NCBI RefSeq assembly: GCF_037975245.1
Contig: NC_092572.1
Coordinates: 20,944,489-21,008,488 of the forward strand
DNA: 64,000 nucleotides
Direction: 5' to 3'
DNA from: Apostichopus japonicus
Taxonomy: Eukaryota > Echinodermata > Holothuroidea > Aspidochirotida > Stichopodidae
Under the pieces are notes generated by a model, which made no database searches, was not told the origin of the DNA, and was given only the letters and a program-made list of their open reading frames with translations. Below are positions 26,392 to 56,680 of this stretch, piece by piece (position 1 is the stretch's first letter; every line of letters begins with the position of its first letter). The position numbers and the translations under genes are program-made.

Positions 26392-29300
26392 TTAAAAAAC
26401 TACAAAAGGACGACCAGCACGCAGCGAAACAAAACACCCTTCCCCAGCACACCAGCGTCCAAAAAAGGCAGCCCTAGATAAACGGCGAAAATCGCCTTCG
26501 ACCTGAAGGCGAATGTCAGACTTCACCGCCTCCAGGACTGCCTGCCAACTGGCAAATTTCCCCCTAAAAACAACATCACATCTATTCCTCCAAATAAGTT
26601 TTTTTACGACAGAAGAAACATAAAGAATACGCTGCGACACAGCAACGGAACAAACTGGAGGATCTAATCCATATAAAACAAAACCCTGTCCTACCGACCA
26701 GGAACGGTCTCCCGTTAAACGGTCGGTCCAGGACTGAAACCACTCCCACAAGTTCAAAACAAAGGGGCAATGCCAAAAAACATGGGCAGTACTCTCTAAG
26801 CTGTCACAGCCGGTCCTCGGGCACAGTCCATCACCCAATCGCCAGTGATACCTTTTCAGATTGGTCACCAAGGCACCGTGTGCAATTCTCCATGCAAGAT
26901 CACGGAGCCTGCAACCATTCAGTCTTGAATGCACCGAACGCCATACTTCGACAGGATGACGTCCCTGTACAAAAATTGCATTCAAGGCCCTATCCCGCAA
27001 GGAACTGAGAACGAGGGCCGGCCGTGACAGGTCAACAGGGGGTAACTCAATAAGAGCGGAGCAAATGACACGCACCACTCTGCTTGGTGTGCTACTATGC
27101 GGTTCTCTGTTGCTAAACAGCGCCGGAACCCATCGACGCAAGTGCAACCCGCCCCAAAAACGTACAAAATATGAACAAGGCAACCCTGGGTCAGTTACCG
27201 CTACAAACAATTGCTTAAATAACAAACAAGTTAACTTACTTCCCAGATGAACCACCCCTAGCCCCCCTTCTCCAGTTTTTGGTACAATATCGCCCTCTTG
27301 ACCAGCTCTGTACCACCAGACCATATTAATTAAAAAACCGCCCTCTCCAACCGCACCAGGACGCGACGCGGAATTGGGTACACCGCGCCCGGGTACCACA
27401 AGATGGGCAAAACGAAACGATTAATAACGGTGACTTTCCCCAAGATCGAAAGCCAGCGGGTGCCAAAGGTTTCGAGTCTGCTCTCAAATACCTCAGCCCT
27501 CTCGCTCCAGGTGACATCACAAGGTGCATCGTAGCCGAACCATATACCATTAATTTTGATATTCTGATCCGACCACGACGCATCGAATGGTAAGTCTCTG
27601 TATCTCCAGCTACCAAGACGAAGGCCCTTTGTCTTTTCTGGATTCAACTTCGCCCCGGTAGCTCTCTCAAAAATAGATAAATCCTGCGAGAGTGCGCGAA
27701 AGGAGCCGAGACTCGAAACAACACATGTCACGTCATCTGCATATTGAGCGCATTTCACTTTGGCACCCCCTGGCACAACGAATGGAACAAGTCTGGAGTC
27801 CCTTTCCAAAAGACGAGAGAGGGACTCGCTAAACAAAATATAAAGTAATGGAGACAGAGGGCACCCCTGGCGCACCCCCCCCCCCCCCCTCTACGTTAAA
27901 ACCCTCCGAACAAAACCCATTTACGATAACAGAACTGAAACTTTCCTGATACAAAACAGAAATCCATTTACGAAAAACCGGGTGCAACTGAAACGTCTCC
28001 AATACATTCATTAAAAAACCGCGATCCACCATGTCAAAGGCCTTCTGCTGGTCCAGAGACACCAATGCACATGGCAGATCACGCTCAATAACAAAGTCGG
28101 TCAAGTCGCGCATCAACCACAAGTTCTGCTGGATGCAATGACCCTTCACTGCACAAGTCTGGAGATCACCCACAAGATGCGGCATAGCCAGTGCAAGGCG
28201 GTTGCACAAAGCCTTAGCCAGCAACTTGTAGTCCACATTTAACAAGGTGATCGGACGCTTGTTACGGGGATCCAAGGGGTCCCCAGACTTGGGCAGCAAA
28301 GTAATCATGCCCAGACGTTGACTTTGGTTTAACAGTCCGTTTTGGAAGGCGTCCTCGAAGACGGCTCTGATGTCGGGTCCTATTATTGCCCAGAAGGTTC
28401 GGTAGAACTCCCTCGGAAGCCCGTCCGAACCCGGGGACTTGCCATTCTTCATCTTCGAAAGCGCCTTCTAAAGCTCAACAGTGGTTATTTCGCCCCCCAA
28501 AATATCATTGACATCGTGGGGAACGGTTTTTGAGATTCCCCTCAATAAATCAGCCTGTGCCGACAAGTCGACATTGCCACGCGTAAACAAACTCGAATAG
28601 TACTCTTTATATACGCGGACAATGCCGTGAGGGTCACTAACCACGGTCCCATCAGTAGCGCGTACAGACGGGACGCGTCTGTCACCTGCCGATGAGCTAA
28701 CGGACTGGTAAAACCTCAGTGAAGGGCGCTCCTCGGCTTCCACCGCTTCGACACGGGCCCTGACGCGGGCACCGTGGTACTTTTCATCGAGATAAGTCTG
28801 CAAAGCGATGACAGCCAAAGGGTCGCCAAACTTCACCTCCGCGCACAGCTTCGAGAATTTTTCTCTTCGACGCCGTGCGCGGGTCACGCAATACTGAATT
28901 GCGTAGTGTTTGATGCGCAACTTGACCTCATCCCACCATTGGGATGTAGAAGCAAAGGCCGGCTTCAATGTTTGCCATCCTTTGTACCTGGTCTCGAAAC
29001 CCTGGCGGAACTCTGCCTCGCCAAGAATCCGACAGTTAAGCTTCCATAGGCCCCGCCCGATGGGGAAAATGGAAGGCAAAACAAAACGTGCTACTACAGT
29101 GTCATGGTCAGAGAGCGGACAGCTGAGCGTCTCGCAACCCGAAAATGTAAAACTTACGGGCGCATACACTCGATCTATCCTGGAGGCATCTTCTCCGTTA
29201 GGCCTCACCCACGTATACACCGTACTACACGGGTGCATATGCCTCCAGACATCGGCTAAAAGGTGTGCCGAAGTGAATCTGTCCAATTCTGTGATCCCAG

Positions 29301-29808: not shown

Positions 29809-29810
29809 AA

Positions 29811-30901
29811 CTACGCCGACGACGATTCCGTAAGCTTCAAGCGCGCCCTAGACAACATATCGTCGTCCGAGTCGTCACTTGAAGCCGACCTTTTAAGAGA
29901 GGGTTCCCCCATTTCGTCGTACCAGCTCGTCCCAGTGGCACGTTTCGGCTCGCTGATCACCGATTCACCGGAGTCGCTGTCAGACAGAACCTCCGGAGAA
30001 TCGATGACCACCGATTCTCCGTCAGACAAAGCCTCCGGATCTGGCGATACCGGCGGCGGACTGGGGACGGAACTGGACGAGTTGATGGGGAAGCTGGTGG
30101 AGACTTTCTCGGTGCGGGCACGGGGTTGGGGTCTGCAACGACGGGGGAGGGTGAACCAGGTGCAGGGGAGGGTAAAATCCCACCAGATTCCCCCTCCTCT
30201 CGTGAAGTAGTAGGTGCGTCGGAACTTGACTTACCCCCACTCTTAGTCCTAGAGACATAAGAGGAGGGACAAGCTCGAAAGACATGTCCCTCCTTCCCAC
30301 ATAGTGAGCACACAACCTCGTTTGGGCAAGCGGTGCTATCATGCCCAAGACGAAGGCAGCGCCCACATTTCTTGTTTGGGCAGCCCTTGGCTTCGTGCCC
30401 GGTCTCCCCACACCTGAAGCAGGTACGGGGCTGACCGGGATACCGCACGTGGGCTTTATGCCCTGCTATAAACAGGAAGGAGGGAATGTCCTGTTTCAGG
30501 TCGATCCGAACCTGTCGGTGCCCGTTCAACACCCCAGGGGCTTGTGCATAGGAGCACATTTTGGCAGCCTTGACAGCCCCGAACCGACCCAAAACCGTTA
30601 CGACAAGTTCCTGCCGCACCTCTTGTCCTACGTGGATGATAGTTACCCATACGGATCGCTCGTATGGAGTAACTGTCATCCCCTCGACGTTACTCAGCAA
30701 CGTGACACCTTTCTGACGGGCCACGTCACTGGTAAAACGTAAATCGTACGTATTACGACCCTGGAGAGCTTGCAAAGCATCAACCTCTCCAGGCACAACA
30801 ACACCCTTGCTCTTCAAAATACTAAAAACTTGCACCGGTGGAACAGCTTGTTCACCGGTGAACGACAACTTAACTATCCGAGAATCACGGCGCGATGCCA
30901 T
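29811..30901 (-). pseudogene. Tx1-like LINE ORF1 with three CCHC zinc knuckles
   Basis: Start chosen at MASRRDSRIVKLSF (30901), because the frame upstream looks like untranslated sequence. An RRM-like middle precedes three knuckles: CFRCGETGHEAKGC, CGRCLRLGHDSTAC and CSLCGKEGHVFRAC. These are typical of Tx1/L1-like ORF1 nucleic acid chaperones. A Pro/Ser-rich tail follows. The frame then runs off to a stop at 29957, but an acidic Ser/Asp-rich continuation (ALSDGESVVIDSPEVLSDS) lies in another frame to 29811, so a frameshift lies near 30040-30060. ORF2 begins 3 bases after this end. Confidence 0.8.
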
Positions 30902-40958: not shown

Positions 40959-41359
40959 GAGGGGATTCCATGGAAGTTACGGAAGACTTATTTTCGATGG
41001 GGATGAACGTAAATATGAGCAATGAACGTAAATATGAGCAATGGGAAGTTAAATTTCTCGGATATATGCGGTTGCAGGGACTAAAGCAAACCCTCGTGAC
41101 TACGGATGTTAACAACGTGGAAACGATCAAAAATGAAGAAGCCTTTGCGGAATTAATACAATTCCTGGACGATAAGAGTCTTTCTCTTGTTATGAGAGAC
41201 GCTCTGGATAACGGGAGAGGAGAGGAGAGGAGAGGAGAAACAAGTCTAAGTTTAACAGTTACAACAATAACAATCAGTTGTGGTGTAGCAATTGTCGTAG
41301 CTCCACACTCAGTGACAATGCCTGTCGTCGTAAAGACAAAGCCGGTAAAGATAAAGTGA
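40949..41359 (+). pseudogene. Copia gag remnant
   Basis: GalEa-like gag: ERKYEQWEVKFLGYMRLQGL, then AFAELIQFLDDKSLSLVMRD. A 19-bp tandem duplication near 41008-41045 (AACGTAAATATGAGCAATG twice) shifts the frame. Most of the capsid after ALDNGR is deleted and replaced by a GAGAGGAGAGG run (about 41214-41238). A zinc knuckle follows as WCSNCRSST...C with the His lost. Confidence 0.8.
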
Positions 41360-42204
41360 GTCAGATTTCTGATACTACTGAGGACGACCACACATTTTCA
41401 TTCAAGGTTAGTGTATCATGTGACACGGATGCAGGTCATGAAAGAACTGATATGTTGTTGGTTGATTGTGGTGCGACTTCGTATATCATTACTGATGAAT
41501 CCCAGTTGGTCTCGTTTGATGAGTCCTTTCGACCTGAAAACCACTTTGTCGAGTTGGCTGATGGAACAAGGTCTAATAAAGCAGCCTTAAAGAGAGGAGA
41601 CGCCAATGTGTCAATCGTCGATGTTAATGGGAGGCGTATTACCGCTTCATTGAAGGATGCCTTATACATACCATCGTATCCGCAGAACATTTTCTCGGTA
41701 CAGGCTGCGACCAAAAGGGGTGCTACTGTTACATTCCAGCCAGACCATGCAGAGATAATTTATAAGACTGGTGTCCGGTTTGATATTGAGAAGCATGGTA
41801 GACTATACTATCTTAATACATATGGTAACTCTAATTCAGACTCAGTTAATTATGCACGTGATCTGAAAGGTTGGCATGAGATATTAGGCCACTGTAATTA
41901 TGATGACATATTGAATCTAGAGAATGTAGTGAATGGTATGAAGGTAACAAACATCACTGATAAACCGAGTGATTGTAATACTTGTGTAATGGGCAAAACA
42001 ACACAAGGAAGGAGTAGAAAACCTAATGCTCGCTCAGGTGTCCCATTGGGCCTAGCTCATACTGATCTGGCTGGACCGATAGATCTAATCTCTAAGCAGG
42101 GCTTTAGATATGCTATTGCGTTCACTGATGACTATTCAGGGGCTGTGTTTGTTTATTTTATTGAGAGTAAGAGGGATGGCTGCAACAGAGAAGTTTCTTG
42201 CTGA
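41278..42204 (+). pseudogene. Copia pol part 1: protease, pre-integrase, integrase start
   Basis: Contains the aspartic protease box LLVDCGATSYIIT, then DALYIPSYPQNIFSVQAATK. The pre-integrase finger GWHEILGHCNYDDI...CNTCVMGK and the start of the integrase core HTDLAGPIDLISKQGFRYAI follow. A frameshift near 42170 ends the frame. Very similar in layout to the remnant at 9125-10542. Confidence 0.88.
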
Positions 42205-43318
42205 TTCTGCTCCATTTGGAAATGTGAAACGTATGAGGTCAGAGAATGGTACTGAATTTACTTCAGAGGGGTTTAAGAAACTCCTAAGAAAGAATCACAA
42301 CAGGCGTCTAAAACAGACACCATATTTTGCCCTGACAGGCCGAATGCCAAATTTGTCTAATATGAGAGTATTCGGATCTGAATGCTGTGCATACAGGCAG
42401 AATAAAGGGAAGTTAGACCCCAGATGTTCCAAGGGTATTTTTGTTGGATATGATAGGGGTAGTCCAGCATACTTGGTATACTTCCCAGCAACAGGGAAAG
42501 TCGGTAAATACAGAGTTGTTAAATTTCCCACGAAGAGTGCTACTGAACAACAGACCCAAACAGATGCTGTGTTCAATGATGACGATTACATGTTCATGCG
42601 TCGTAATGAAGGTCTTAATAGTCCACCCGATGATGGTAGATCAAAAGATAATTCCAAATTGGGGGGTACCAGTACAAGGGAAGAAACTAGTACTGATGAT
42701 AGTCCAAATGTAAGGTATTCTAAGAGGGAAAGAAAATCCCCAGCCTACCTAACTGACTATGTTACTGATGTGGGGGGAGATGATCAGGTATTGACTAACA
42801 TTGATTATTGTTATAGAGTAAATGCCTTTCCTGAAACCTACAAAGAGGCAATTGAATCACCAGATTCTGAGTCATGGAAAACAGCCATGAAAGAAGAAAT
42901 GAGTTCTCTGAAAGAGAATGATACTTTTACCCTAACCACTTTACCTGAAGGTCGAAATGCAGTGCGGGGTCGTTGGGTGTACACGATTAAAGAGGGTTAT
43001 GACAATTCCAAAACTTACAAAGCTAGGTATGTGGTTAAAGGTTATAGTCAAGTAAAAGGTAATGATTATCAGGAAACTTTTTCCCCAACTGCAAATCATA
43101 CGTCTGTGCGTGTTTTGATGCAAATAGCAGCACAGTATAATATGATTTTGCACCAAATGGATGTGAAGACTGCGTACCTTAATGCACCAATTGATTGCGA
43201 AATACATATGGAACAAGTTGAAGGTTTTGAAATTCCCTCCCAATGTGAAGAGAAGTTGGTGTGTAAAATGAACAAATCCCTATATGGATTAAAGCAATCC
43301 GGTAGAAAACTGGAATAG
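42110..43318 (+). pseudogene. Copia pol part 2: integrase remainder and reverse transcriptase start
   Basis: Integrase resumes as KRMRSENGTEFTSEGFKKLL. An internal deletion of roughly 60 residues removes the catalytic Glu region, joining to RLKQTPYFALTGRMPNLSNM. A linker, then RT: SWKTAMKEEMSSLKENDTF, GRWVYTIK, KARYVVKGYSQ and HQMDVKTAYLNAPIDCEIHM. It ends in a stop at 43316-43318 just after SLYGLKQSGRK through a 1-base shift. Confidence 0.88.
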
Positions 43319-43800
43319 TGTATTACACACTTTCCTACTTGAAAACGACTTTGTGCAGAGTTCAGTTGATCATTGTGTGTACATAAAACAAGATGAGAGT
43401 TAAATGACTGTAATACTTATCTGGGTAGATGACTTGATTATTGCAGCAAGCAATGAACAAGTAAGCAAGCAATGAATGAGTATGTCATGTCAAACAGATG
43501 TTGAAAGCTAGATTTAAAGTGAAAGATCTAGGTAAACTGTCCTATTTCTTGGGTATTGATTTTGAACAAAATAATGGAGTTGTCACAATGAGTCAGAACA
43601 AATATTTGTGCAAAGTGCTCGAAAGGTATCAAATGTCTGATTGTAAGCCAAGGTCCACTCCTTCTGAGCAAAAGATTGAGGGTAATGGTAAAGATCTAGC
43701 TGATCCCAGAAGATATCGTGAAGTTGTGGGAAGCCTCATATATGCTATGGTGTGTACCAGACCAGATATTTGCTGGACCATTACCAAATTGTCACAGTAT
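43319..43800 (+). pseudogene. Copia pol part 3: RT catalytic end up to the insertion
   Basis: Continues in shifting frames with DHCVYIKQDE, the catalytic box ILIWVDDLIIAA near 43420, and, from 43498, KARFKVKDLGKLSYFLGIDF and LADPRRYREVVGSLIYAM. Homology stops at KLSQY (codon TAT, 43798-43800), where the 12.3-kb DNA transposon begins. It continues at 56099. Confidence 0.88.
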
Positions 43801-43813
43801 CCCCTCTACAAAT

Positions 43814-44110
43814 TTAAGTGTGCTAGTTGCACGCAGCTTATGCGCCGAGAGCGAACATACAACAACGTTCGTAACTGGCGCACAAAAGTAAGCAACCTGC
43901 GCACAACCCACGCGCTCCAAGGGAAGCGTGCGTTTCGTCTTAGCGCGCGCACACTAAGACGGAGCGCGCGCATGCCATCTTAGCAGGCGCACGCTTCGTA
44001 TTAGCGTGCACGTGCTTCGTCTTTGCGCGTGCGCGCTTGATCTTAGCGCGCCAGTTCTTGGTTAAGCGTGCAAAGAGGACTTAAATACTTTTGCTGACTT
44101 CTGAAGCAAA
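43814..44110. repeat. Left GC-rich subterminal repeats
   Basis: About 300 bases with repeated GCGCGC, AAGCGTGC, CTTAGCGCG and GCGCAC words in both orientations, in sharp contrast to the A/T-rich surroundings. Probable transposase-binding region. Confidence 0.75.
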
Positions 44111-45209
44111 CAATTTGGACTTTGAAAAAATTGCTTATATGTCTTTGTGCGCGAGTAGTTCTTGGACTTGAACCATGTGGTAGACTTGTGTAAGGTGGTG
44201 CGGTGCGCATACAAACTTCTGGGTCAGTTTCATGGGAACCCGAAGGCCCTTAAGGGTTCTTGAAACAATTGTGTAGGGTATATTGAACAGTATTTAAAAG
44301 CATGAGAAATGTTACAGTACAATTAGGAACGCAGGCTTTCAGTGAAATGTTACTTCAAATGATCTTCAATGAAATCAAGATGCTTGTGCACCTTGGGGAA
44401 TAGGAGGAAAACAGGGCAATATTTTTCAGAGCCTGACAAACAATTTCTAATATAAGTTAACAACACCTTTAGAAATAAGACACCTCATGACAAAGAACAT
44501 GTTGTGAAATGAAATTTATTTACACTCATCATACAGTACATGTAAGTAATGTATCACATGCTAACAAATAGAAAGAATATCAAAATTGAGGGAGAAACCC
44601 ATCTTTTGTTCATAAGCCAAAATAAGTATGACACATGTAATGTCAATTGTGAATTCATGGTTAAAACCAGTAAGGGTTTTCCTTGCACTACACCACTAAC
44701 TTGAGGCTTATGCTCCATTGTTGATAAAGAACTACAATTTGGAATTTACTGTAATTACGTATATCAAGTACTACCACACCTCTTTCTCCACTCAATCCCC
44801 CAGCCTCAAAATGTATACCAATTCCTTTTGCCCTAATATGAGCAGAAAGCTGAATATATACACAGCATTTATTCATGTCTCACAATGATTTCCTAAAGAA
44901 AACTAAACATTAAAATTGGTAACCTGAAGGCACTCATTTTAATTTGAGGTACAACCCTGAGTATTAGTCTACCAGCAAAAGATATTATTCCACCCTTTAG
45001 TCACTCTCTAGTAAATTTGGAGCTTGTGCAATGAAAGACTCTTCTGGATTTTCAAACTGCATGAAAATACATAGCTCAGCAATATACTTTACAGGTATGA
45101 TATGAAAAAAAATCATCACCTTGATTTTTAACCATCAAAAGATGGTCTAATTTTAATGTTGTTCTGCAATTTGCAGCAATGCTGTCAGCCACAGAGTTCA
45201 TGTGCTTTA
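44111..45209. other. 3' side of the transposase gene; no certain exon
   Basis: AATAAA on the minus strand near 44516-44524 could end the transposase transcript. A minus-strand frame at about 45094-45001 (IAELCIFMQFENPEESFIAQ, then a stop) and another at 44876-44688 may be terminal exons but show no recognised domain. Confidence 0.35.
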
Positions 45210-48009
45210 TCACAGCAAGATAATCTGAAGAAAAATACATTTCGCAGAGCAACTGCAGCATTTCGTACATTTTAAAAAGTACTTTATCTGCCCAAAAAAT
45301 GTAACTCCCTCTTTAAGATATCTTACAGTATATGAATTTCTTTTGGTCACAAGTTTGTAATCACTGCTGTAAAGTAACATGTCATTCAGCTGAAGACGAA
45401 AAAATTTGTAAAAAAGCTGTGGTTTATAACCAATACATTCAACTATCAATGGCAACAGATCTGACTCAGGGTTACATTGCAAAAGACGACCAACCACTGA
45501 AATGAAGCCATCTATCACCTCTGTCCTTGAGGCAGGTTTTTTCTTAACAGATAGTTTTTTAACATACTTCAATGTATCTGCCCCAACAGACACATTTTGC
45601 AATAACTCTGGAACCTTCAGCAAAGAACACAAATTATTTGCTATTTTCAAATGTGGCTTTTTTGTGCCCTGCACCATGTGCAATAATTTCCCATTGATAT
45701 CTTCATATGCAAAGCATGAATACACCCACAGTGGACCAAGATTTCTCACTACACCTGGAAGATGGAGAAGCCCATGAACCACAGAAAGGCAGTACCGGAC
45801 TCCATATAATGTCCCAAACAAGTAACAAAAGTGGATAAGTAAACTTTCACAGTATTTAATATCATTGACAGAAATACTGTCACTATTCAAAATGACAACT
45901 GCCTCTACTAGTAATGCATAATGCTCAAAAATATGTCATTCATTAATCTTTAATACTCCTTGGAATTCGGGAAATGAAATGTGGAGGCTTTATCTTGGTA
46001 AGTCGCATATCAATATTTTCAAGCAGAACTGTGTGCATATAATCAATAGCCATTCCATCAGCAAGATTCATACCAAATGAACTTAGAAAAGTAGGCCCTT
46101 TGATGCCATTAATGGGCTTTTTCATTTGCATGGTATGCACTTTCATAGCATCACGCAACATTTTTTCATGAGACCGTTTAGGACAGGAGGATTAGTCATG
46201 CAAAAAGGATATGTCCACACCGAGCCTTTTCCTGTTGATGTTGAACAGCCTTTTTGTAAGCAATGAGAACACCCAAAAGCACCATTAAACTGCACCATAT
46301 TTAACATTACAGCTCTTGCAGGAAGGTCACATGTACCGCAGAGAACCACAGCTTTAACTATGATAATTTCCTTTTTGTCCTGAGCATAAACTTCTACACC
46401 ATCTTGAAGTTCTTTAATGGAAGCAAGGAATGGCTTCAGAAAAGTGCCCACAGCCGGTTTTGAACCAAGCCACAATCCAGCGTAAATCAAATTCTCTTTT
46501 AGGAACCGTCGTTTATGCGGCAACTCATTGATTGAAAAAAAAAGGCCAAAGGCTGACCTTTGATGATTTGAAGATGGGACATCCATCTGTATACCACATA
46601 AGAGATATGTTTCTTGGTTCATGTAAAAGTTTTCCGGGAGCAAAAAGACGTTTGTACTGCTCTCCATCATAAATATCCTGAATATTGTCACTGTTTTTCT
46701 TCTTTCTGTTGAATCTATGCTGCATGTCATTATAAAATCCCTGCCTTTTCATTAAGGTGCAAATTTGATTAACAATCGGTATTTCTATAAAGTAGGATAT
46801 TCCACTGTTCTCCGAGACATCACTGCTGCATACTGGGTACCTATCATTATCAGAGGAGCTAAGTAAATAATTACAAAAATTGCAGAACTTCAAAGGATTT
46901 TTTACAGTTCCATAAAATTTGTTAAATATATGAAGTGTTGTCTTGCAGATATTTGGCTTTTGGCAGTGCATTGAAATTAGCACAAGCAAATCAACCAGTG
47001 CAACACCAGTAATGCTATGGCTGCTTGAAAACATCAGAATCATCAACATACTTTCTGCCAAAGTTAGTGGAGCACCTTCATAAAGTGGTTCATCTTCTGC
47101 TTCATCATGGATAGGTGGGGATTCCTTGCAGTCAAACCAGTCATCTTCAAGGTCGAACTCCTCTACACTGAGTGGGTCACACCAGTCATCACTTTCATAA
47201 ATGCCTCCTACCTCTTTAATATTTGCCAGGTGGAGGTTATCATCATCCAGATCCCTGTGATGAGTACAGGAAAAAAAGTTATGGTTCAAATATAACCTGT
47301 TTATGTGTGAACAACTATGTTAGAGTACAGCCAAGAACCTTGCATTTTTTTTAGTGAACGGCAAGGAAACATGAGCTTCTTGCATGTTTCTACGATGAAA
47401 CATTTTTCCATGATTTAAGTGTACTTCTAAAAGTAAAGATGACTAGAAAAGTACATATAGAGGAAATCCCCAAACCCTTGACCAATTTGACAAAGCATCG
47501 CACCAACTTCAACTCTATTTTCTATTCTATTTCATTTGATCAAGGATTAAACTGCAACACTAACTAGCATCATACATGTCAAATTAACAACACTTGATAT
47601 ATTTCACCCAACCTGCCTGGACATATTAAAACCCACACAAGCTCTGATCAGTACCATATACAGTATCTTCATTATTGTTAAAGAAACCACATAAGCCCAG
47701 GTTGGTTAATAAAAAAATCCAGGCTGTTTGGGCAAATTGTATTTTGGGAATAAGACAGCTGGCCAGTTGGTCCTTACCTATTTCCCTTACGACTACTGTA
47801 TGTGAGTCTACCTAAAAAGTATCACTAATTTGAGAAGCCTAGGTATACTACAAGCCTAGGTCTTATTACCTTTTTATTCCATCCGTTGAGGAGCCATCAG
47901 ACAGAGGTAGGCCCAAGAAGTGGTCAGATTCGGAGAAATTCAGATTATTAGATCCTTGTTCCACAGTATGGATGCATTCAAGTTCAGATGACAAATTCTG
48001 AGTACCCAT
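45210..48009 (-). pseudogene. CACTA/Tnp2-like transposase gene, interrupted
   Basis: Exon 48009-47870 (MGTQNLSSELECIHTVEQGS...) joins, with matching phase across GTAATA/CATCACAG, to an exon from 47254 (DLDDDNLHLANIKEV...). The core has CNFCNYLL, then MWYTDGCPIFKSSKVSLWP, GLWLGSKPAVGTFLKPFL, CDLPARAVMLNMVQFNGAFG with CSHCLQKG, and NGIKGP...DYMHTVLLE. From 45890 the C-terminal part has CYLFGTLYGVRY, LHLPGVVRNLGPLWVYSCFA and HMVQGTKKPHLKIA. Damage: frameshift in a T9 run (46534-46542), a frameshift near 46180, and a deletion of about 30 residues near 45940. An intact version would cut and paste the element. Confidence 0.8.
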
Positions 48010-49486
48010 TTTATTCTCATTGAATTCAGGTTTTTAATGGGTTGTAAGGGAAGGTTGGCTAGGTTAAAATTGTTTGTTTGTTGCTTGGCCTATGTATTGC
48101 GTAATTTGGAGGCTAGTACTAGTAGCAGTAGTAGTACTACCATGGGCATCATGTTCAACTTCAACCTCCCTTGTTGAAACGAAGTCAACTTGCCCTGGCT
48201 GAATTTCACTTACTGTGAATTCATCATCTTCTAATTCAACTGTCCTAACACCTAAACTCGCTTTAATCTCCACTTGCTTGTCATACGCCACCGTGTGGTT
48301 TTCGAGACAGTTTGTTTTGATGCACTATTAATATCACTAGGCTTAGGCCTTGTTCGACAGCGTGACTGAACGTTAGGCTGACGTGTACACCACCGCTTAT
48401 AAGCTCTGTGGTCCTGCGTAGGCAAGTAAGGACTTGTTGGATCAACTTCCAGTAAGTGAGACATAAATATGAGGTGGTTTCGAAGTCACCATAACACAAC
48501 TGCGACAGTGAGTTCATCTGTGCAAAACCTACGAATGATCACCATTTCCCCCCTGATAAAACAACAGGCGGGCTCGGTAGTGCTGACGTTTAAAAATACT
48601 TTCACCGGATGGTCGCCGCGCTGTAATAGTTTACTAAGTATGTTAGATTAACGTTGGCAACTTGGAACTGTATACTTAGTTACTACTTGAGAACACTGCT
48701 CGTTAGTGTAGATCAGTGCTTGAGAATAGCACTAAACATATCCCGATAATGGTCAATTGTACGGAACAATGTACGATACAACTAAAATGCTTCCACATCG
48801 TGAAAAAGAATTTTCTTAAATACGCATCGTTAGATCCTGTTACCAATACAAGTTTTCAAAGATAAGCTCATGCGACTACTTTTGAACCGAATTACTGCTC
48901 TATAAACATTTTGACCCACCTTAACCGTGCTATTACCTGTTTTGACAGCTTACGTGATTCTTTCTCCTCCGTGGAAGCACTTTGCCAAACTATACATGTT
49001 GCGTAAGTCGATATATATGCAAATATTATGGACTGGTAGATACTAGCCAATCAGCGTAGAACAAACGATCATCGCGCTTTAATTTTGAACCCAAGTTAGA
49101 AGTACCGACGTTACAGTACGCTGTCAAGCAAGTTCTTGCCGAAAAGTCTATATCTTTCCCTTGACATCCACTGTAACTTATTTCAATCAGCCATTGCGAA
49201 AGTGTTTAAATTTCTTTTTTTATGCCTTGGTATTGATTCCGCTCAACTTTAATTAGGTTTCTAGCTCTTCCGTAGCCTAACCTACTAGCCTAACGTCCTT
49301 CAGTTCTACATCCTCGACTTTGTAAACCAGTTGTTCGCTTTCTTTGTATCGGCAGCAGGATATTTCGTTGCATTATCGTCAATATACATTCTTTGTCAAC
49401 CTGTTGGAGATTGCAGCTTTGCGAATTATCCAGGGAATTTTAACAATATCAAGACATTTATATTTGCAAGTTAGGGCCTTGATAAT
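48010..49486. promoter_or_regulatory. Divergent intergenic region between transposase and BEN genes
   Basis: About 1.5 kb separates the two gene starts on opposite strands. It has no long exon, though a minus-strand frame from 48464 (MSHLLEVDPTSPYLPTQDHR, with KTTRWRM) could be an alternative 5' exon of the transposase. No TATA or other motif stands out. Confidence 0.4.
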
Positions 49487-49535
49487 GGATGCGACTGCCT
49501 CGATGCTTTTGTCTCAGATGCAAACAATCCTAAAG

Positions 49536-49718
49536 TCGTTTCAACGAAACTCCAAACTGTTCGGCAAAGATGCCTTATTTACTGGGTTGACGATCGTTTA
49601 GTCAGCATCGAACCTATATCTTCAGTGGTTGAAAAAAATCAAGTGAAAGAAGGAGCTGTTTGTAAAATCAAGTGGAAAGGAAAGGGACCATATCTCGGAA
49701 AGCTTATCAAAATCAGTG
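49536..49718 (+). CDS. BEN-domain gene, 5' exon
   Basis: The useful frame reads RCLIYWVDDRLVSIEPISSV, then KEGAVCKIKWKGKGPYLGKL and ends AAA ATC AGT G at a GTGAGT donor (49719). This Trp/Lys-rich start is like the small N-terminal module of BEN-domain proteins of the BEND3/uncharacterised type (inference). An ATG at 49487 opens a different frame that stops at 49599, so either the true start is unclear or a frameshift lies near 49540. The single leftover base pairs with CT of the next exon to make Ala. Confidence 0.55.
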
Positions 49719-49946
49719 GTGAGTACTATTGCGATAGGCTTACAAGTAACATTAACTTAAAAGTAACACTAAATTTACAGCTTAGGCTAAGCAATTGTAG
49801 CTTAGGCTACCTTACTAATACTACAAGTACTACAGTAGTAACTATTTAAACTTAAAGCCTAGCCTATGCTGTACTGGCTCAAAATATGCCAGATATTCAA
49901 AAATGGTTAGCCTAGGCCTACCTGTGATCAAAATTCTTTATTGGCC

Positions 49947-50214
49947 GTGGCTATTCTTACGACTAGTCGTAACAATTATTTATAAACTATTCTTACGACA
50001 AAGGCGAATTCAAGCGCATTAAAGTAAATAAAGCAACTGCGCATGTAGTAGGGGTAACCCTTACTTTAACCCTAAACCCCAATCCTAATCCTAACACTAA
50101 CCGGATATTATTGTTACTCCTGGTCGTAAAAATAGTACTCCTGTCATAAAAAATAGCAACTGCGGATGCGTAATCGGAAATTATTATTACGAAGTCGTAA
50201 GAATTATAGCCACT
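49947..50214. mobile_element. MITE-like element in BEN-gene intron
   Basis: Ends GTGGCTATTCTTACGAC and GTCGTAAGAATTATAGCCAC are inverted repeats differing by two inserted bases. Further TCGTAA/TTACGA words lie inside, plus a degenerate CCCTAA-rich stretch at 50055-50102. TSD not resolved. Confidence 0.6.
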
Positions 50215-51328
50215 TTGTTCTTTATTTACCTCACTGGGACATTCAGTCATCTTCCCTAGTAAGAACTTCCAGGAAAGTACCTATATTGGTGCAGCTAATG
50301 AATCAATTTGTTACTCTGCGAATCTTTTAGACTTTACCGATATAAACCTTTAAAAGGCGCAATGGTTTTCTTTGGCGTCTATAGTATTAATATAAACTGC
50401 CCAGTGTCCAAAAAGAGCTAGCCCAATGTAGGCCCCATAACCAGTGCAGTTAATGCTGTTTCAACAAACTTTGCATGTAATCCAAAATCCACAAAAACAT
50501 AAACTTGTTCTGATGTAGGCCTAGGCTACACATAACACATTTGATAGCCTATAGCCCTCAACGCAGATGATTGGAAGGCTGCAAAATTGCAGAGCAATGG
50601 AATCAGTAAATAGGCTACTTTATATTTATGTTGGTTTCCTCTGACGTTACAAGTACAAGGAACTTAAGGAAGCCTAGGCCACATGCTTATTGGCGTCAAG
50701 AAATAAATTAAAAAGAATGTATACTTAGTTATGGAGTCATCATTTCGAAAGCATGGTCCTTCTTTACCAGGTCCAAACAAGACAAATGTTGGTATTGTAT
50801 GCATAAATATACAAAGCAAAGTAATTTTTCAGAAAGTTGCTCATTGTCTTGAAAAATCCTGTACGAATGTAAATTGATTAGCCTAGGTTTCCCTAGGAAC
50901 TTTGTGGTGTGTAAAAATTAAAACATTTCTGTGAATAGTGTTAATACGACAAATATGTCGACTGTACACTTTAAATATGTCACGCATCATTAATGTCCAT
51001 TAATTTATTTCTTGGTACTTTTCGAGTCTACAGTAGTTTAACTGTACTTCGTCCCTTTAATGCATGTCATACAGTCTATACAGTAACACCTACTGTATGA
51101 CATCAGTCTTCTCTGTACTTTTTCAATACAATAAATCATCCTGCCCTGCTCTTTTAAAACCCCAATCATTCCCCCCCCCCCTCCCCCCTTATGTCTGAAG
51201 CTGCATATAACCATACATGTACCATGTTTCTGTAATCCTATTGTTTAAAAAAATTTAGTAACTAGAGTTATTATACTATAGAGGTAAGCAACTGTGATCA
51301 TCATTGTTTTCTGTACAATCATTCACAG
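50215..51328. other. BEN-gene intron, no other feature
   Basis: No coding potential; a C-tract (51171-51187) and TAGGCCTA words only. Confidence 0.5.
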
Positions 51329-52012
51329 CTGACTCTAAAGTATTACGTGAAGAGCAGTTTAAACTTGAAGAGGCCCTCTTTAAAGTAACGGATCCCCAAA
51401 AAGGCCAATCATCTCCACGTCAGGATGAGGGTATAGCTTCTACGAAAGGGAGAAAGAGGACAAAGCCCAGGAAACTACTTGAGGCAACAGATGTGGAGGA
51501 AGAGGAAACGGCTGACAAAGCTTCACTGCCACCGCCCACGAAAAAAGCAAAGGAGACCAAGGCAAAGATGTCAAAACTTTCCGCCAAGGTTGATGCCCAG
51601 AGGGCTGTCTTTGAACAATATTTTAAGGAAAGCCCCACTTATACATCAACTTCCACAGGAGAACCTGAGCCTGCAACATATATTCCTATTCCAGAACCAA
51701 TTATTAACAACACTGACAATGCAATGCCTGCCCAGTTTACTTCATTCACAGCCCTACTGAATGATTCAGGAGATGAAGGAAACTGTCTTGAAGGAGCCTC
51801 ACGTGCTGTAGAAGTTCTTCACGATGATTCTAATCTGTTTAATGACTCTACAAACCTGGATGAAATTCATTTCTTGAGATAGGAAGTAGACAGACTTCTA
51901 TGGGTAATTGAAACAAATGACCAGGAAATTCAAGATTTGAGACAAAGGCTCAGTGAAGGTTGTGACTGCTACAACTCACCAGCACCAGAGAAGACAGTAA
52001 TGAATGAAATCA
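51329..52012 (+). pseudogene. BEN-domain gene, central exon with a nonsense codon
   Basis: From acceptor TCATTCACAG the frame reads ADSKVLREEQFKLEEALFKV. A basic stretch with NLS-like KGRKRTKPRK, an acidic patch, KKAKETKAKMSKLSAKV and a Pro/Thr-rich linker follow. An in-frame TAG at 51880-51882 lies just before EVDRLLWVIETNDQEIQDLR, a short coiled coil. The exon ends ATC A|GTAAGT. Phase matches both neighbouring exons. Confidence 0.65.
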
Positions 52013-52529
52013 GTAAGTTTATTTTAGCTGTTTTTGGACCAGAATATTATTTTTTTTCTGGCTATATTGTTACACCATATTATTATTTCCAGGACAAGGA
52101 CCGGTTTCCCTCTTTTCCTTTTTGTGAGAAAACCTTGTTTAATCTATTGGACTTCGCCTAGAAAAATGTAAATTTTAACCAACATTTCAGGTTTCAATTG
52201 GTACATACTATAGGTAATGATTGCTAATTGTCTCATTTACCCTCATGAATGGATATGATAGATAAATGAGTTCTTTTATAATCTCCTGTTCATTATATGT
52301 GACTCCAAGGAAGATTAAATTCCTCAGTGACCTGACAAAGACTTTGTCCTGTATGGTCACAGAGACTGCACCACCATTGATGACTACGCCACCATCGTTA
52401 ACTACGCCAGCATCGTTGACTACGCCATCATTTTCAACCATACCTGAAACGAGTACACTGGGGGCAACAACTAGTAGCTTCGTCACAGAAGTAGGGGACA
52501 CATCAATGTCATCATCACGATCTGGTGAT

Positions 52530-53562
52530 CATAGGCGTAGGAGGCGGGGGGGCTGGGGGGGGCTGCAGCCCGCCCAACCAATTATTTTTGTGAAAATTCG
52601 GGCAATATGCTGAGAATTTTTCGGGCACCTACTGGAAGAATAATAATTTGCAGTGTGTTTTTCACTTTTTTTTTGGTGAAAATTCGGCAATATGCTGAGA
52701 ATTTTTCGGGCACCTACTGGAAGAATAATAATTTGCAGTGTGTTTTTCACTTTTTTTTTGGTGAAAATTCGGCAATATGCTGAGAATTTTTCGGGCATCT
52801 ACTGAAACAATAATAATTTGAATGTGTTTTCAATTTTTTGGGTGAAAAATTTGGGCAATATGCTGCGAATTTTTCGGGCACCTACCAGTGGCGGAGCGTC
52901 CATACAGTCAGAGGGGCGGATGCCCCCCTGACGGACTCAAATGGACTACTGGCGCCCTTTTCAGCTTTTTACCACTTTCTACTTATTCGCGATTGACTTT
53001 TTTTATTGCGCTCTCAAATACCTATTGACATTTGTCACATTTTGTTGGTGCAATTTTCTGACAAATGGCGATGACACCTATTTATTCTTCGTTTATCTGC
53101 AAATAAGCTAGGCCTGGAAAGGGTCATTTCCGGCGATCTAGGGAGTACCTTTACTCAAAAATTTTTTCTACGCTCCGCGCCAACCGGTGGTGGCGCTCCG
53201 CTTAGATAGTGTCGAAAGCGCCCCTACAGACCATTCTCTCCCCCCTGGTCAATACCCTAGCTCCGCTACTGGCACCTACTGAAAGAAGAAGAATTTGCAA
53301 TGTGTTTTTCAATAGTTAAACTTATATTATTATCCTTATTGTTGTAACGAATTCCACAATAATTATAACCAATATGGAAGGCCGGTAATAACACGAAAAA
53401 TGATTTATATTATTGACATGTGATGTAATAAGCGATGAATGCCTATATATGATATGCACATTAACATGTGGAACGCGCGCGGAGCGCGCGAAAAATTTTG
53501 GTTATATTTTTCGGGCAAGTGGTTACAGCCCCCCCAAATCAAATGAGGCTCCTACGCCTATG
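52530..53562. mobile_element. hAT-type non-autonomous element in the BEN exon, 8-bp TSD
   Basis: Termini CATAGGCGTAGGAGGC and GCTCCTACGCCTATG are inverted repeats. CTGGTGAT is duplicated at 52522-52529 and 53563-53570. Inside are about four tandem copies of an 85-86 base unit (GTGAAAATTCGGCAATATGC...) from 52590 to 52880, and a second hAT-type element. Confidence 0.92.
52886..53271. mobile_element. Inner hAT-type MITE, 8-bp TSD
   Basis: Ends CAGTGGCGGAGC and GCTCCGCTACTG (one mismatch) are typical hAT tips. GCACCTAC is duplicated at 52878-52885 and 53272-53279. It sits inside a tandem-repeat unit of the outer element. 386 bp, non-coding. Confidence 0.92.
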
Positions 53563-53579
53563 CTGGTGATCAGGATGAG

Positions 53580-54291
53580 GTGTGTTCTTTTGTAGCTTTG
53601 TTTCTATTTTGAGCTGTGCAGTAACAAATTTGTCCTGCTTACAGTCCTAGCATATCAAAATAAAAGTGATCTATGAAAATACTTGAAATTCAACTGTAAG
53701 TGTATGAATCACCTTGGAAAGGCAAATCCTACCTTGTAAGTACAGGTACATATGAATAAGCAACAAAAGCTTGTGTCTTAATCAAAAAAAGAAAAATGTT
53801 TGTAAAAAACTTCAGGTAGAGATTGCACAACTCGTCCCAGCCTGTAATAATATCACAAAGTTTGCACACTGCAGGTTCTGGAAAGTCAGGGAAACTAAAA
53901 TAGGAATTTGAAGGTCTGGAAAGTCAGGGAATATGTATAATTTTTCCAAAGGTCATGGAAAGTCATGGAATCTTAAGAAACCATGTATTTTTTACCCTGA
54001 TATTCTCAATCTAAAATTTGTTTATAATGTAAAAAAAAACAGAAGTGGGAAAACAAAGACACATTGAAGAATATTTCATTTGAGGTCCTTGAAAGTCATG
54101 AAAAGTCATAGAAATTTTTGCTGTTGGAATGGGTACAAACTTTGTTTCAACTTCACATTTTTTGGAAGTCTTCCTGACAGCAACCCATTCGCCCCCCCCC
54201 CCCCCCCACTTTTCCATTCCCCTTACTAATGAAAACAAATTGACAGTGATAAATATTTAGTCATTTTCTACATTTCATTGTCTCTTTGCAG
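53580..54291. other. BEN-gene intron
   Basis: No gene. A set of GAAAGTCA(G/T)GGAA words (53877-54110) and a 16-base C run (54192-54207) are the only structure. Confidence 0.5.
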
Positions 54292-54526
54292 AAAGTTGAA
54301 TTAGTGAAAGGCACTGGTGTTTATGTCACTGTGCCAGAACAAACCAGTATTGCACCAAAAGGGAGAAAAGGTTTAGGTGTAATGTTGAGGAAAATTCTAG
54401 AAGTCCTCTTTTCCTTTGATGAGCTTCGTCGTGGCTGTGCTGTTGGAGGAAGACCAAAGGTTTGCAACAAGCAGTCTGTTGACGTGAGTGTTCCGCTTGA
54501 TCCCAAACGCTTGAGTGCAGCCAAAG
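54292..54526 (+). CDS. BEN domain, first part
   Basis: After acceptor TCTTTGCAG the frame reads KVELVKGTGVYVTVPEQTSI, then GVMLRKILEVLFSFDELRRG and VSVPLDPKRLSAAK, ending at a GTGAGT donor. This matches the BEN domain pattern: a start like VELVxGxGVYV, a helical LFxxxEL segment and LDPxRL. BEN domains bind DNA or chromatin and are found in NAC1, BEND proteins, Insensitive and some viral proteins. Here it lies inside a transposon next to its transposase. Confidence 0.78.
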
Positions 54527-54853
54527 GTGAGTTACTGTTAAAAGGTGTACTTTTTCTATTTATCAAGAAAAAAAAAGCTTGCAAAAGAGAGCATATATTT
54601 TAAGGTAGGTGTGTGCATCAAAAAAAGGAGTTGAGTGTTTCAAATTGTTTGCTGTTTGCATTCTACTTTGCATTTTGGTGATTGACAATTTATTAAAGGG
54701 ATATTTTGGTGGCATGCAATGTGCATTTACAGAAAAGACAAATTTATAAACCAGAAATTTTGTACCTACAGAAATTTTTTTTCAGTGCACAACTGACACT
54801 TTTTCATGTGTTAAATATTATTGACATCAATGTCTTGTGCTTTTGTCAAAAGA

Positions 54854-54972
54854 AGGGTCTGCCAGCACCGACAGAGACTGACATCAATGCCATAGTAAAC
54901 AGCAAGTGCGTCGCTGTTCGTCGTAGCTTCAAGCAGAAGTTTTCCAGTTTCACAGACAAGCGGCAGTAACAA
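54854..54972 (+). CDS. BEN domain, last exon with stop
   Basis: GLPAPTETDINAIVNSKCVA and VRRSFKQKFSSFTDKRQ end with TAA (ending about 54969). This matches the BEN C-terminal helices (xxIxxAIxxKC). The phase between this exon and the previous one is off by one base at the best acceptor, so a small indel or a different acceptor is likely. Confidence 0.65.
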
Positions 54973-55760
54973 TTCAAAACTTCCCTGGGGTTGGGTATAT
55001 TATGTATGCTAAACTTTATAGGTCACTTAAAACTTCCTTGTATGATAGGTACTCAACAACCTTTGCAACTCTATTTAGCCTTGCCATTTTTAAAATGCCT
55101 TTAAATCTTGAATTATTTCAATTATATTCTTAAGCTGCAACTGCACATTACCTAAACATCTCTCAGTATTCCATTTTCCCCTTTGCCATTTTTATACCTT
55201 GAAAACTTTTGGTAGTTTAGGTTACACCAAGCAATCCGAATCGAGTTATTTTAGTTAAAAATCAATGATTTCTTTCACCTGCCATTTTTCTGCTGCACAA
55301 TTAGATATTTTTTGATATTGCATCAACCTTTTTTATACTAACTATGATATCTTGCTAGTTTTTTATATTCATATTAATTAAACTGTTAACTAAAACAACA
55401 TTAGTTCATTACTCATACTGTAAAGTTGCATAGCACTGTTCACTTAATGAACAAAGTCTATGTTAACAGCTTTAAGCCTTGTTAGTTTGTCCAACCTGTA
55501 ATAAAAATATTAAATCACTCAATTGTATTAATATTCTATACGTCAACTGCCAATGCTTACACCCTAAACATTTCTACTTATCAGCAGTATTCTCACCAAA
55601 ATCTTTTCTTTTCATTAAAATACCTTTTAATATTAATCTGTGCACATGAGACATGTTGTCTCATTTTACTTCACAATACATTTTATTTTAGACATTTAAA
55701 TTGAAAAATTAGTTTTCTCTTTTCTGCTTTGGCACTAAATGTGCTTATATAGCTGCATGC
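54973..55760. other. 3' flank of BEN gene, no gene
   Basis: A/T-rich, no recognised feature. Confidence 0.5.
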
Positions 55761-55794
55761 ACCCTTTAGCTTCTTGTGTGCTTCAACAACAACA

Positions 55795-56083
55795 AACCGC
55801 AGCGCGCTCAAGTAGCTAGCAGAGCGCTCAAGAAGCGTGCATTGTTTCTATGCTTCTGGCGCTACAGTGCACAGCTTGCGTGCGGCACGCTACTTTTGTG
55901 TTTGCTAGCGTAAATTGTTTCAAATCGCACGCGATCCGTTTGCGTTTCACACGCTTAAAGCTGGACCGCGCGGCACGCTGTAGCGCGCAACTTTTGCTAG
56001 CGTACATAAAGTTTCAAATACCCCTCGATCCGTTTGCACTTCGCGCACTCTTCTAAAATCGCACGCGTGCAGACATGAGAAAT
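55795..56083. repeat. Right GC-rich subterminal repeats
   Basis: Repeats of AGCGCGCTCAAG, GGCACGCT, GATCCGTTTGC and CTAGCGTA words mirror the GC-rich left end of the 12.3-kb transposon. Confidence 0.75.
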
Positions 56084-56098
56084 ATTTGTAGAGGGGAT

Positions 56099-56680
56099 AT
56101 GTCAAAACCACTCGAAGAGCACTGGACGGCAGTCAAAGATGTTTTGAGATATTTGAAACGTACCCTAGATTATAGGTTGTGCTATAGAAAGTGTGAGGAT
56201 GGCTTGTCATTGATAGGTTACAGTGATGCTGACTGGGCCTCCTCCACTGATGATAGGCGTAGCATTAGTGGGTATTGCTTCAGTTTGACCAAATCTGGTC
56301 CTCTGATATCCTGGAAGTCCAAAAGGCAGCCCACTGTGGCCTTGTCATCGTGTGAAGCAGAGTACATTGCACTGGCAGCAACAGTACAGGAGAGTTTGTA
56401 TCTCACACAGTTGTTAAGTGATTTTAGAGAAGAGAGCCATGTAAAACCCACTCTAATTTTTGAGGACAATCAAGGCACAATTGCCTTATCAAAAGATCCA
56501 ATCAATCACCAAAGATCTAAACACATCGATATTCGTTATTATTTCATTCGTACTGAAGTTAATAGAGGAAAGACTATTATTCACTATTGTCCAACCGAGG
56601 ACATGATTGCAGATGTGATGACAAAACCCGCAACAAAGCTCAAATTAGAGAAGTTTGCAAAGTTCTTTTTCGGTGTGTAA
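56099..56680 (+). pseudogene. Copia pol part 4: RNase H
   Basis: Copia homology resumes with MSKPLEEHWTAVKDVLRYLK, then GYSDADWASSTDDRRSISGY, WKSKRQPTVALSSCEAEYIA and KHIDIRYYFIRTEV, the complete copia RNase H, ending at 56680. The D, E and D active-site positions (YSDADW, SSCEAEY and FEDNQG) are all present. This segment is open, but the element as a whole is dead. Confidence 0.92.

Follow-up and report, generated by a model that had tools for sequence, protein, structure and literature searches.

A Tnp2-type transposon of Apostichopus japonicus pairs its transposase with a divergent BEN-domain gene

The window, a 64,000-nucleotide stretch of Apostichopus japonicus DNA, harbors at 43801-56096 a damaged copy of a Tnp2/CACTA-type transposon of about 11.3 kb, inserted in a copia-type retrotransposon (Table 1). 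The exact 13-bp terminal inverted repeats (TIRs) of the first-pass annotation were recovered between AT dinucleotides, and a scan of both strands of the window found their sequence only twice, at the two element ends. With the flanks joined over one AT, the copia frame (...TKLSQYMSKPLEEHW...) was open again. This copy looks dead. Its BEN gene displayed an in-frame TAG, a 13-nt deletion and two lost acceptors, its transposase gene several frame-breaking indels, and it held two inserts of 512 and 1,041 bp, the larger a Mutator-like non-autonomous element by its anatomy. The region around the element was rich in nested elements. Neither Rfam nor tRNA scanning gave a match in the window.

Table 1. 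Features of the transposon and of a related empty site, in window coordinates
Feature	Position	Strand	Remark
LINE copy	26501..27098		Empty site of the B25 element (on C17 near 25.0 Mb); not part of the window element
Target duplication AT, left copy	43799..43800		A single AT between the joined flanks restores the copia frame
Left TIR, 13 bp	43801..43813	+	CCCCTCTACAAAT; exact inverted copy at 56084-56096
Left subterminal GC-rich repeats	43930..44051		19-21-bp units, TCTTAGCGCGCACGCGCTTCG
Transposase exon 2	45000..47254	-	D, D, E residues and Transposase_21 core; several indels in window copy
Transposase exon 1	47870..48464	-	Start codon to GT donor; frame-broken in window copy; mapped from intact C17 copy
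BEN-gene exon 1	49485..49718	+	RCLIYWVDD...GKLIKIS, tentatively Tudor-like; 13-nt deletion in window copy
BEN-gene exon 2	51329..52012	+	By eye, charged and resembling a coiled coil; in-frame TAG in window copy
BEN-gene exon 3	52297..53579	+	Split by insert; acceptor TAG reads TAT in window copy
Insert, 1,041 bp	52533..53573		No counterpart in C17 copy; ~10-bp duplication CTGGTGATCA, inverted ends TAGGCGTAGGAG
BEN-gene exon 4	54292..54526	+	N-terminal two thirds of BEN domain
BEN-gene exon 5	54830..54969	+	C terminus of BEN, then stop codon; acceptor lost by deletion in window copy
Right subterminal repeats	55799..56049		
Right TIR, 13 bp	56084..56096	-	ATTTGTAGAGGGG on + strand; exact inverted copy of left TIR
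Target duplication AT, right copy	56097..56098		

The minus-strand Tnp2 transposase was upheld. The window fragment matched Transposase_21 with E 1.9e-6 and 27.7 bits, just below the cut-off of 28.6, and the homologous exon of the copy at C17:24242-35531 (the C17 copy) scored 43.7 bits, above it; in other families, C3 reached 37.4 bits and C11 26.2, the latter below the cut-off. The transposase of the C17 copy is intact and open over 1,010 amino acids, and an 820-aa transposase frame was also open in the C16 copy and in a second C17 copy. Three acidic residues, D240 (WYTDG), D327 (GTCDLPA) and E586 (SCF..E), which we take to be the catalytic triad, were invariant in three families (alignment A2).

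On the plus strand, the C17 copy encodes an intact companion of 516 aa in five GT-AG exons, all in phase, the splice model being drawn from the sequence of this one intact copy. The first-pass annotation had described four exons interlocking in phase; it had missed exon 3, exon 2 has no direct in-phase join to a BEN exon in the window copy, and the last exon, placed from 54854, starts near 54830. The companion is laid out as a Tudor-like domain (tentatively), a coiled-coil-like linker and a C-terminal BEN domain.

By Pfam alone, the BEN assignment of the window copy was weak. The cut-off of PF10523 (23.2 bits) was exceeded only in C11 (36.0) and B25 (27.1); the C17 copy of the window family stayed at 16.7 bits, outranked by RR_TM4-6 (18.3 bits, itself under its cut-off), and C3 at 14.1. 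Of the two profile matches anticipated by the first-pass annotation, Transposase_21 thus fell just short in the window and was positive in the C17 copy, and BEN was weak in a single-exon scan (E 0.078). Pfam scans gave no match for the BEN exons of the damaged window copy in joined form, nor for those of the A15 companion, and a local BEN profile matched the BEN exons of A15 (E 0.23) and B25 (E 0.14) weakly. Both window BEN exons together matched the BEN domain of NAC1 (NACC1) with E 9.4e-5, and a profile of three families (C17, C3 and C11) matched it over the whole domain (PDB 8yzs and 7bv9) with E 4.8e-14. Chance homology is ruled out by the NAC1 match over both exons and the agreement of the three-family profile, and the plus-strand BEN gene stands. 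NAC1 has a BTB domain; the companion differs from NAC1 in its Tudor-like exon, its coiled-coil-like linker and its place inside a transposon. The B25 companion presumably resembles vertebrate BEND5 in BEN exons, coiled coil and N-terminal part, and differs in lying inside an 11.6-kb element with TIRs, a target duplication and an empty site; by sequence, its BEN matched no BEN structure in the PDB. The predicted fold of BEN exon 4 of the window family was unusable (pLDDT 49).

The core block of exon 1 gave a predicted fold with pLDDT 81-89, from a model built on a 4-sequence alignment. Its top 17 Foldseek matches were JMJD2/KDM4 and RBBP1/ARID4 entries, 14 of them titled Tudor (best E 0.064); none of the 75 matches reached E 0.001 or better, and a Pfam scan of the companion found no Tudor match. 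The model tentatively suggests a Tudor-like domain, in which W38, W68 and Y74 are invariant. This first-exon domain was common to the companions of four of the six families.

The host genome (671.6 Mb) yielded five full-length copies of the window family, the window copy included, with target duplications AT, AA, CA, TA and AG. Transposase and BEN matches were divergent in all five, in the order that the first-pass annotation had proposed to look for in other copies, and no full-length copy without BEN was seen among them. A sixth copy, on C2, was internally deleted and had lost one end, keeping BEN exons 4-5 and a 3' part of the transposase. A divergent transposase match (out of 53 genome-wide) lay within 15 kb of 8 of the 14 window-type BEN matches; uniform placement gives this pairing a probability of 4.5e-23, an estimate that ignores the kinship of copies. 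Of the 53 transposase matches, 39 showed no divergent BEN match within 15 kb, many of these being fragments and the BEN searches reaching near relatives only.

The pairing recurred in five further families (C3, C11, A15, C1 and B25), with transposase identity down to about 38%; that of C1 is known from search matches. B25-type BEN matches were paired with a transposase at 6.1-6.5 kb in four of five cases at 95% identity or more, and two of four A15-type BEN matches lay 9.4-9.7 kb from a divergent transposase match. TIRs were found in C11 (CCCTTACAGAAAAG), A15 (CCCTTACC[CT]AACACGAATA) and B25 (CCCT[AG]GT[AG]GAAAT), and a search for a C3 TIR found none. All TIRs read begin with CCC (termini CCCCT or CCCT), a start used in choosing the ends of C11 and B25, the latter confirmed by its empty site. 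All eight elements with both ends read displayed a 2-bp duplication, the five of the window family along with C11 (TT), A15 (TA) and B25 (TA), matching flanks having helped to choose the ends of these last three. Empty sites were recovered for two elements, the window copy and B25. Constraint between C17 and C3 is suggested by a dN of 0.301 for BEN exon 4 and 0.365 for the transposase, with dS undefined, beyond the range of the method; in the close pair C11 and C16:26.28, constraint on BEN exon 4 was mild (w 0.43-0.54).

The transposase tree and the BEN types gave the same groups, window/C3/C11 and A15/C1. The B25 transposase fell outside the starred tree group of window, C3, C11, C1 and A15, and the B25 companion has a different type of BEN. 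Together with intermediate transposases for which no BEN was displayed, this would fit a pairing that arose more than once, a NAC1-like BEN joining one transposase branch and a BEND5-like BEN another. Such repeated origin is a serious contender at a little under even odds, as gene order, an exon-split BEN and a long linker are common to both companion types and the sampling comprises one genome. The distant transposases C7:2759347 and C11:3835198 gave no match to the local BEN profile at E 0.01 across their 10-kb loci; this absence is uninformative, because the BEN exons of A15 and B25, present in two of the four loci of that run, escaped it as well.

The element, a cut-and-paste transposon with two genes, falls in the animal branch of the CACTA/EnSpm (Tnp2) group. 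Plant CACTA elements have a 3-bp target duplication, against 2 bp in the elements of A. japonicus, which lack the CACTA termini and whose TIRs begin with CCC. Maize En/Spm, with repeats near its ends, likewise encodes a Tnp2 transposase together with a second protein, TnpA, on which the proposed role of the companion is modelled; to our knowledge, TnpA is not a BEN protein. Within CACTA, the window element belongs to the animal TRC branch. According to the passages of DeMarco et al. 2006 (PMC1636069) on SmTRC1 of Schistosoma mansoni and its relatives, these share with it Transposase_21, the CCC start of the TIRs, 2-bp duplications, introns and insertion into repeats. SmTRC1 measures about 4.7 kb with 54-bp TIRs, and its further products, which arise by alternative splicing, were reported to show no detectable conservation outside Transposase_21; those passages mention neither BEN nor Tudor, whereas the window element has a separate divergent companion gene. 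In the same source, alternative splicing of a single transcription unit yields both maize TnpA and TnpD, in contrast to the two divergent genes here. A literature search, with subscription papers and Repbase outside its scope, found no description of BEN with a CACTA/EnSpm element among the texts retrieved; in PMC5704228, the one paper found to combine 'BEN domain', 'transposon' and 'CACTA', the three occur in unrelated places.

Repeats confined to the ends were found in all four families examined, and were family-specific. Counted in the 700 bases at each end versus the rest of the element, AGCTTGCA occurred 13 versus 0 times in C11, TATTCGAA 27 versus 0 in A15, AACTGGGT 17 versus 0 in B25 and GCGCGC 11 versus 0 in the C17 copy, the repeats of the window family being less regular than those of the others (no 8-mer more than five times at the ends). 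By analogy with En/Spm, we give a probability of about 0.6 to the companion being a TnpA-like partner that would bind the ends, bridge them with the transposase and act on chromatin or the promoter. The BEN domain would recognize the family-specific repeats crowding both ends; companion and transposase would bring the two ends together, as TnpA does with TnpD in maize; and the Tudor-like and linker parts may act on chromatin or on the promoter of the element. The roles guessed in the first-pass annotation, binding of the subterminal repeats or managing of chromatin, would fit this anatomy.

A companion that acts chiefly on the chromatin or transcription of the element (against silencing, in promoter control or as a self-repressor), with no part in joining the ends, would accord with the Tudor-like first domain, and with the divergent orientation of the two genes, so that the promoter region may be common. 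Host BEN proteins, in the passages of PMC4574769 dealing with them, are repressors or predicted chromatin factors. This alternative is nevertheless unlikely, since repeats that differ between families and keep to both ends suit an end-binding factor. The two roles are also compatible: in the account given by PMC1636069, transposition requires maize TnpA, which also acts on the promoter.

Capture of the BEN gene from the host, to be carried along as a Pack-type passenger, is suggested by the other BEN-domain matches of the genome (27 by Pfam) and by the presumed likeness of the B25 BEN to vertebrate BEND5. It is improbable given one divergent order across all six families, the first-exon domain common to four of them, the dN of 0.30 with dS beyond range and the agreement of transposase and BEN groupings; a recent passenger is largely refuted by the presence of the gene in all five full-length copies and with five other families. 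Two unrelated elements, adjacent or nested, with TIRs by chance, might be imagined in a region of nested elements where the window copy itself holds two inserts, but this is refuted by copies with both TIRs and separate flanks that are colinear (one throughout, three more in the stretches compared) and by the empty sites of the window copy and B25.

If the companion is the TnpA-like partner proposed, animals would have their own equivalent of plant TnpA, assembled from domains known chiefly from chromatin regulators of the host. Where BEN proteins come from would become testable, with families differing in BEN and end repeats as natural protein-site pairs. The transposon would also be linked to a possible histone-reading domain, which bears on how elements cope with silencing. 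A wider reading, conceivable though doubtful, makes proteins of the Tudor-coiled-coil-BEN layout an ancient accessory of Tnp2 transposons in animals. Some BEN genes of hosts (BEND5-type, NAC1-type) and of viruses would then have such companions as ancestors, or have been exchanged with them. Viral contigs scanned with the transposase alignment gave 196 pattern matches, none confirmed. Under this wider reading, it was in recognizing transposon ends that BEN would have evolved its recognition of particular DNA motifs.

An exact inverted 13-bp pair, CCCCTCTACAAAT, occupied 43801-43813 and 56084-56096 and occurred nowhere else in the 64-kb window, bearing out the terminal inverted repeats (TIRs) of the first-pass annotation. 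The element was flanked by AT on both sides, and when the flanks were joined with a single AT a copia-type pol frame continued across the junction (...TKLSQYMSKPLEEHWTAVKDVLRYLKRT...), which establishes the ends as correct and the target duplication as 2 bp. The Tnp2 transposase lay on the minus strand, its frames broken, and the BEN gene (the companion) on the plus strand. Gene models were taken, from sequence alone, from C17:24242-35531, a copy on another contig with both genes open (11,290 bp). Over aligned bases the window copy was 97.6% identical to it, with two extra inserts (see table), the longer being by its anatomy a Mutator-like non-autonomous element. The predicted BEN product measured 516 aa, with every intron GT-AG and every junction in phase. 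The predicted transposase (1,010 aa, two exons) contained an 820-aa frame matching the Transposase_21 profile at 43.7 bits. The BEN exon chain first proposed for the window copy did not hold: it omitted exon 3, its final junction sat where the acceptor is lost, and exon 2, supposedly joining the BEN exon directly in phase, ran into a stop.

Location and termini of the window element, its copies and the related families (C numbers denote contigs of the host assembly)
Feature	Location	Identity	Inverted ends	Duplication	Length or remark
Copia-type frames split by the window element	window 41212-43800 and 56099-56680				
512-bp insert, BEN intron 1	window 50010-50521				missing from C17 copy
1,041-bp insert, BEN exon 3	window 52533-53573		TAGGCGTAGGAG	~10 bp, CTGGTGATCA	
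BEN-gene exons, C17:24242-35531	element positions 5945-6191, 7372-8055, 8360-8601, 9309-9543, 9878-10020				
Window copy	window 43801-56096			AT	
Full-length copy	C16:1.36 Mb			CA	
Full-length copy	C17:24242-35531			AA	
Full-length copy	C17:0.52 Mb			TA	
Full-length copy	C18:14.26 Mb			AG	
Family C3		to window probes: BEN 61%, transposase 63%			
Family C11		to window probes: BEN 45%, transposase 45%	CCCTTACAGAAAAG	TT	12,707 bp
Family A15	C17:15.31 Mb	transposase 38%	18/19 matching	TA	13,663 bp
Family C1	transposase C1:18494127 (-); A15-type BEN C1:18503810 (+)	transposase 44%; A15-type BEN 43%			known from search matches alone
Family B25	C17:25.0 Mb	transposase 41%	11/13	TA	11,642 bp

In the host assembly (671.6 Mb, 35 contigs) the window corresponds to C12:20944489-21008488. 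A COI gene opens contig C35 (16,099 bases) and translates well if AAA (10 codons) is taken as Asn, AGA (4) as Ser, ATA (11) as Ile and TGA (6) as Trp. This corresponds to NCBI code 9, which echinoderms and flatworms have in common; the protein has an echinoderm look, with conserved Asn and Ser at the positions concerned, and the chromosome number may point to a sea cucumber. Across the genome, the BEN exon probe gave 14 matches and the transposase core 53. Five full-length copies carried both TIRs, with one mismatch in the left TIR of the C18 copy; a sixth, on C2, was internally deleted and had lost its right end. A left-end DNA probe returned ten rows, made up of these six copies, one relative (80%) at C14:11472149 and some short fragments from C7 and C17. 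In the stretches compared with C17:24242-35531, the C16 copy was 99.8-100% identical, the C18 copy 98.0-98.5% and the C17:0.52 Mb copy 99.3-99.5%, falling to 98.9% at one end and 94% at the other; the family has therefore moved recently.

The divergent transposase-BEN pairing is general in this genome. Counted by script as a transposase match within 15 kb, it was found for 8 of the 14 window-type BEN matches in divergent order, the arrangement whose recurrence the first-pass annotation had proposed to check, and for 9 in any orientation (a transposase fragment lies near C16:26280688 in the other orientation). Five were unpaired (C16:11778809, C19:15253253, C17:15399148, C7:13341271 and C17:25568712). 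The chance of 8/14 under uniform placement was 4.5e-23, an optimistic figure because the copies are related; when matches were hand-grouped into nine families, 3 were paired (probability 1.7e-8). Conversely, by hand count, 14/53 transposase matches had a divergent BEN match within 15 kb, and the remaining 39 had none among the BEN matches of these searches. Contig C17 carried 23 of the 53, 20 of them within 15.3-25.5 Mb, suggesting a repeat-rich region or a special chromosome. We consider that transposase and companion form an evolved unit (probability about 0.97).

Pairing extended to further families (see table). B25 was inserted in a LINE, of which window 26501-27098 is an uninterrupted copy (96% identical, the sole gap being the 2-bp duplication); LINE frames at window 26392-30230 appeared by eye endonuclease-, RT- and CCHC-like. 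Of 58 matches to the B25 BEN, five reached at least 95% identity; four were paired at 6.1-6.5 kb, and the fifth (C17:22132791) had a transposase match about 22 kb off. The others, for the most part near 50% identity, are apparently members of a different repeat. About 50 matches (locus L080, most others of this search, and C3:12241947) formed a repeat carrying BEN-like pseudo-exons about 50% identical to the B25 BEN, most with one internal TAA, and the two copies compared shared 95-99% of nucleotides.

In the transposase tree (16 rows), the window family, C3 and C11 were joined (96/96), as were A15 and C1 (99/99). These five fell inside a starred group of seven, the other two rows being without demonstrated BEN partner, and B25 fell outside; BEN types formed the same groups. 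As 6 of 13 inner branches were open, the tree accommodates either one or two origins, and the partnership may have arisen once or twice. Between C17 and C3, dN was 0.301 (BEN exon 4) and 0.365 (transposase), with dS undefined, beyond the range of the method; the closer pair C11 and C16:26.28 gave a w of 0.43-0.54 over 76 codons, a mild constraint.

The BEN exons of C11 (36.0 bits) and B25 (27.1) exceeded the Pfam cut-off of 23.2 bits, while C17 (16.7) and C3 (14.1) remained under it; a profile of the C17, C3 and C11 domains matched NAC1 across the domain (E 4.8e-14). The A15 exons had no Pfam match, and their assignment draws on gene order, exon pattern, the C1 relative and a weak profile match (E 0.23). 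The genome also holds a separate repeat family with an uninterrupted BEN (loci L001, L002, L004, L006, L008 and others among the BEN matches), not of the companion type, several matches having equal scores and 119-aa frames; L006 also showed a reverse-transcriptase-like frame by eye.

The companion's first exon was common to C17, C3, A15 and C11 (invariant M1, C34, W38, S45, W68, Y74, I81, S82); the N-terminal exon of B25 differed. AlphaFold predicted a strand-rich core (block pLDDT 81-89, whole model 72.9). The top 17 Foldseek matches were JMJD2/KDM4 and RBBP1/ARID4 entries, 14 titled Tudor (TM 0.47-0.56, best E 0.064), and none of 75 matches reached E 0.001; the exon is tentatively Tudor-like. 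This domain had 65 genomic matches, about 50 of them in arrays (C12 14.8-17.3 Mb, C19 31.0-32.3 Mb, C20 0.3-1.4 Mb, C14, C11, C4, C21 and others), roughly 50-60% identical, mostly with 99-aa open frames and many spaced about 0.12-0.45 Mb, suggesting that the repeat unit is very large. At C7:13334240-13341501, a companion-type first-exon domain and a BEN exon lay 7 kb apart on the same strand, with no match to the transposase core within 15 kb; the locus may be what is left of an element or else a host gene with this domain layout.

Ends and middle were compared in the four families with ends read, and in all four the commonest end repeats occurred seldom or not at all in the middle. Counts at ends versus middle were 13 and 0 for AGCTTGCA in C11, 27 and 0 for TATTCGAA in A15 (palindrome TATTCGAATA, 13 and 0), 17 and 0 for AACTGGGT in B25, and 11 and 0 for GCGCGC in the window family, whose 8-mers reached only 5. 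Palindromes were prominent in the ends of the window family, C11 and A15, not B25, and would suit a dimeric binder. The B25 motif CCARYTGG (15 at ends, 0 in the middle) would fit the preference of Insensitive and BEND5 for sites resembling CCAATTGG.

By its CCC termini, 2-bp duplication and Transposase_21 domain, the element is a relative of the TRC-type animal CACTA elements, which share these features (PMC1636069). A literature search, with Repbase and subscription papers outside its scope, turned up no description of a companion with a BEN or Tudor domain. The Tudor-like exon suggests a possible chromatin role; that the companion is a methyl-lysine reader is less likely than not. By analogy, the companion probably binds the element ends. 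In maize, TnpA and TnpD are both required and TnpA acts on the promoter (PMC1636069); most likely, the companion would bind the end repeats and cooperate with the transposase, as TnpA does with TnpD.
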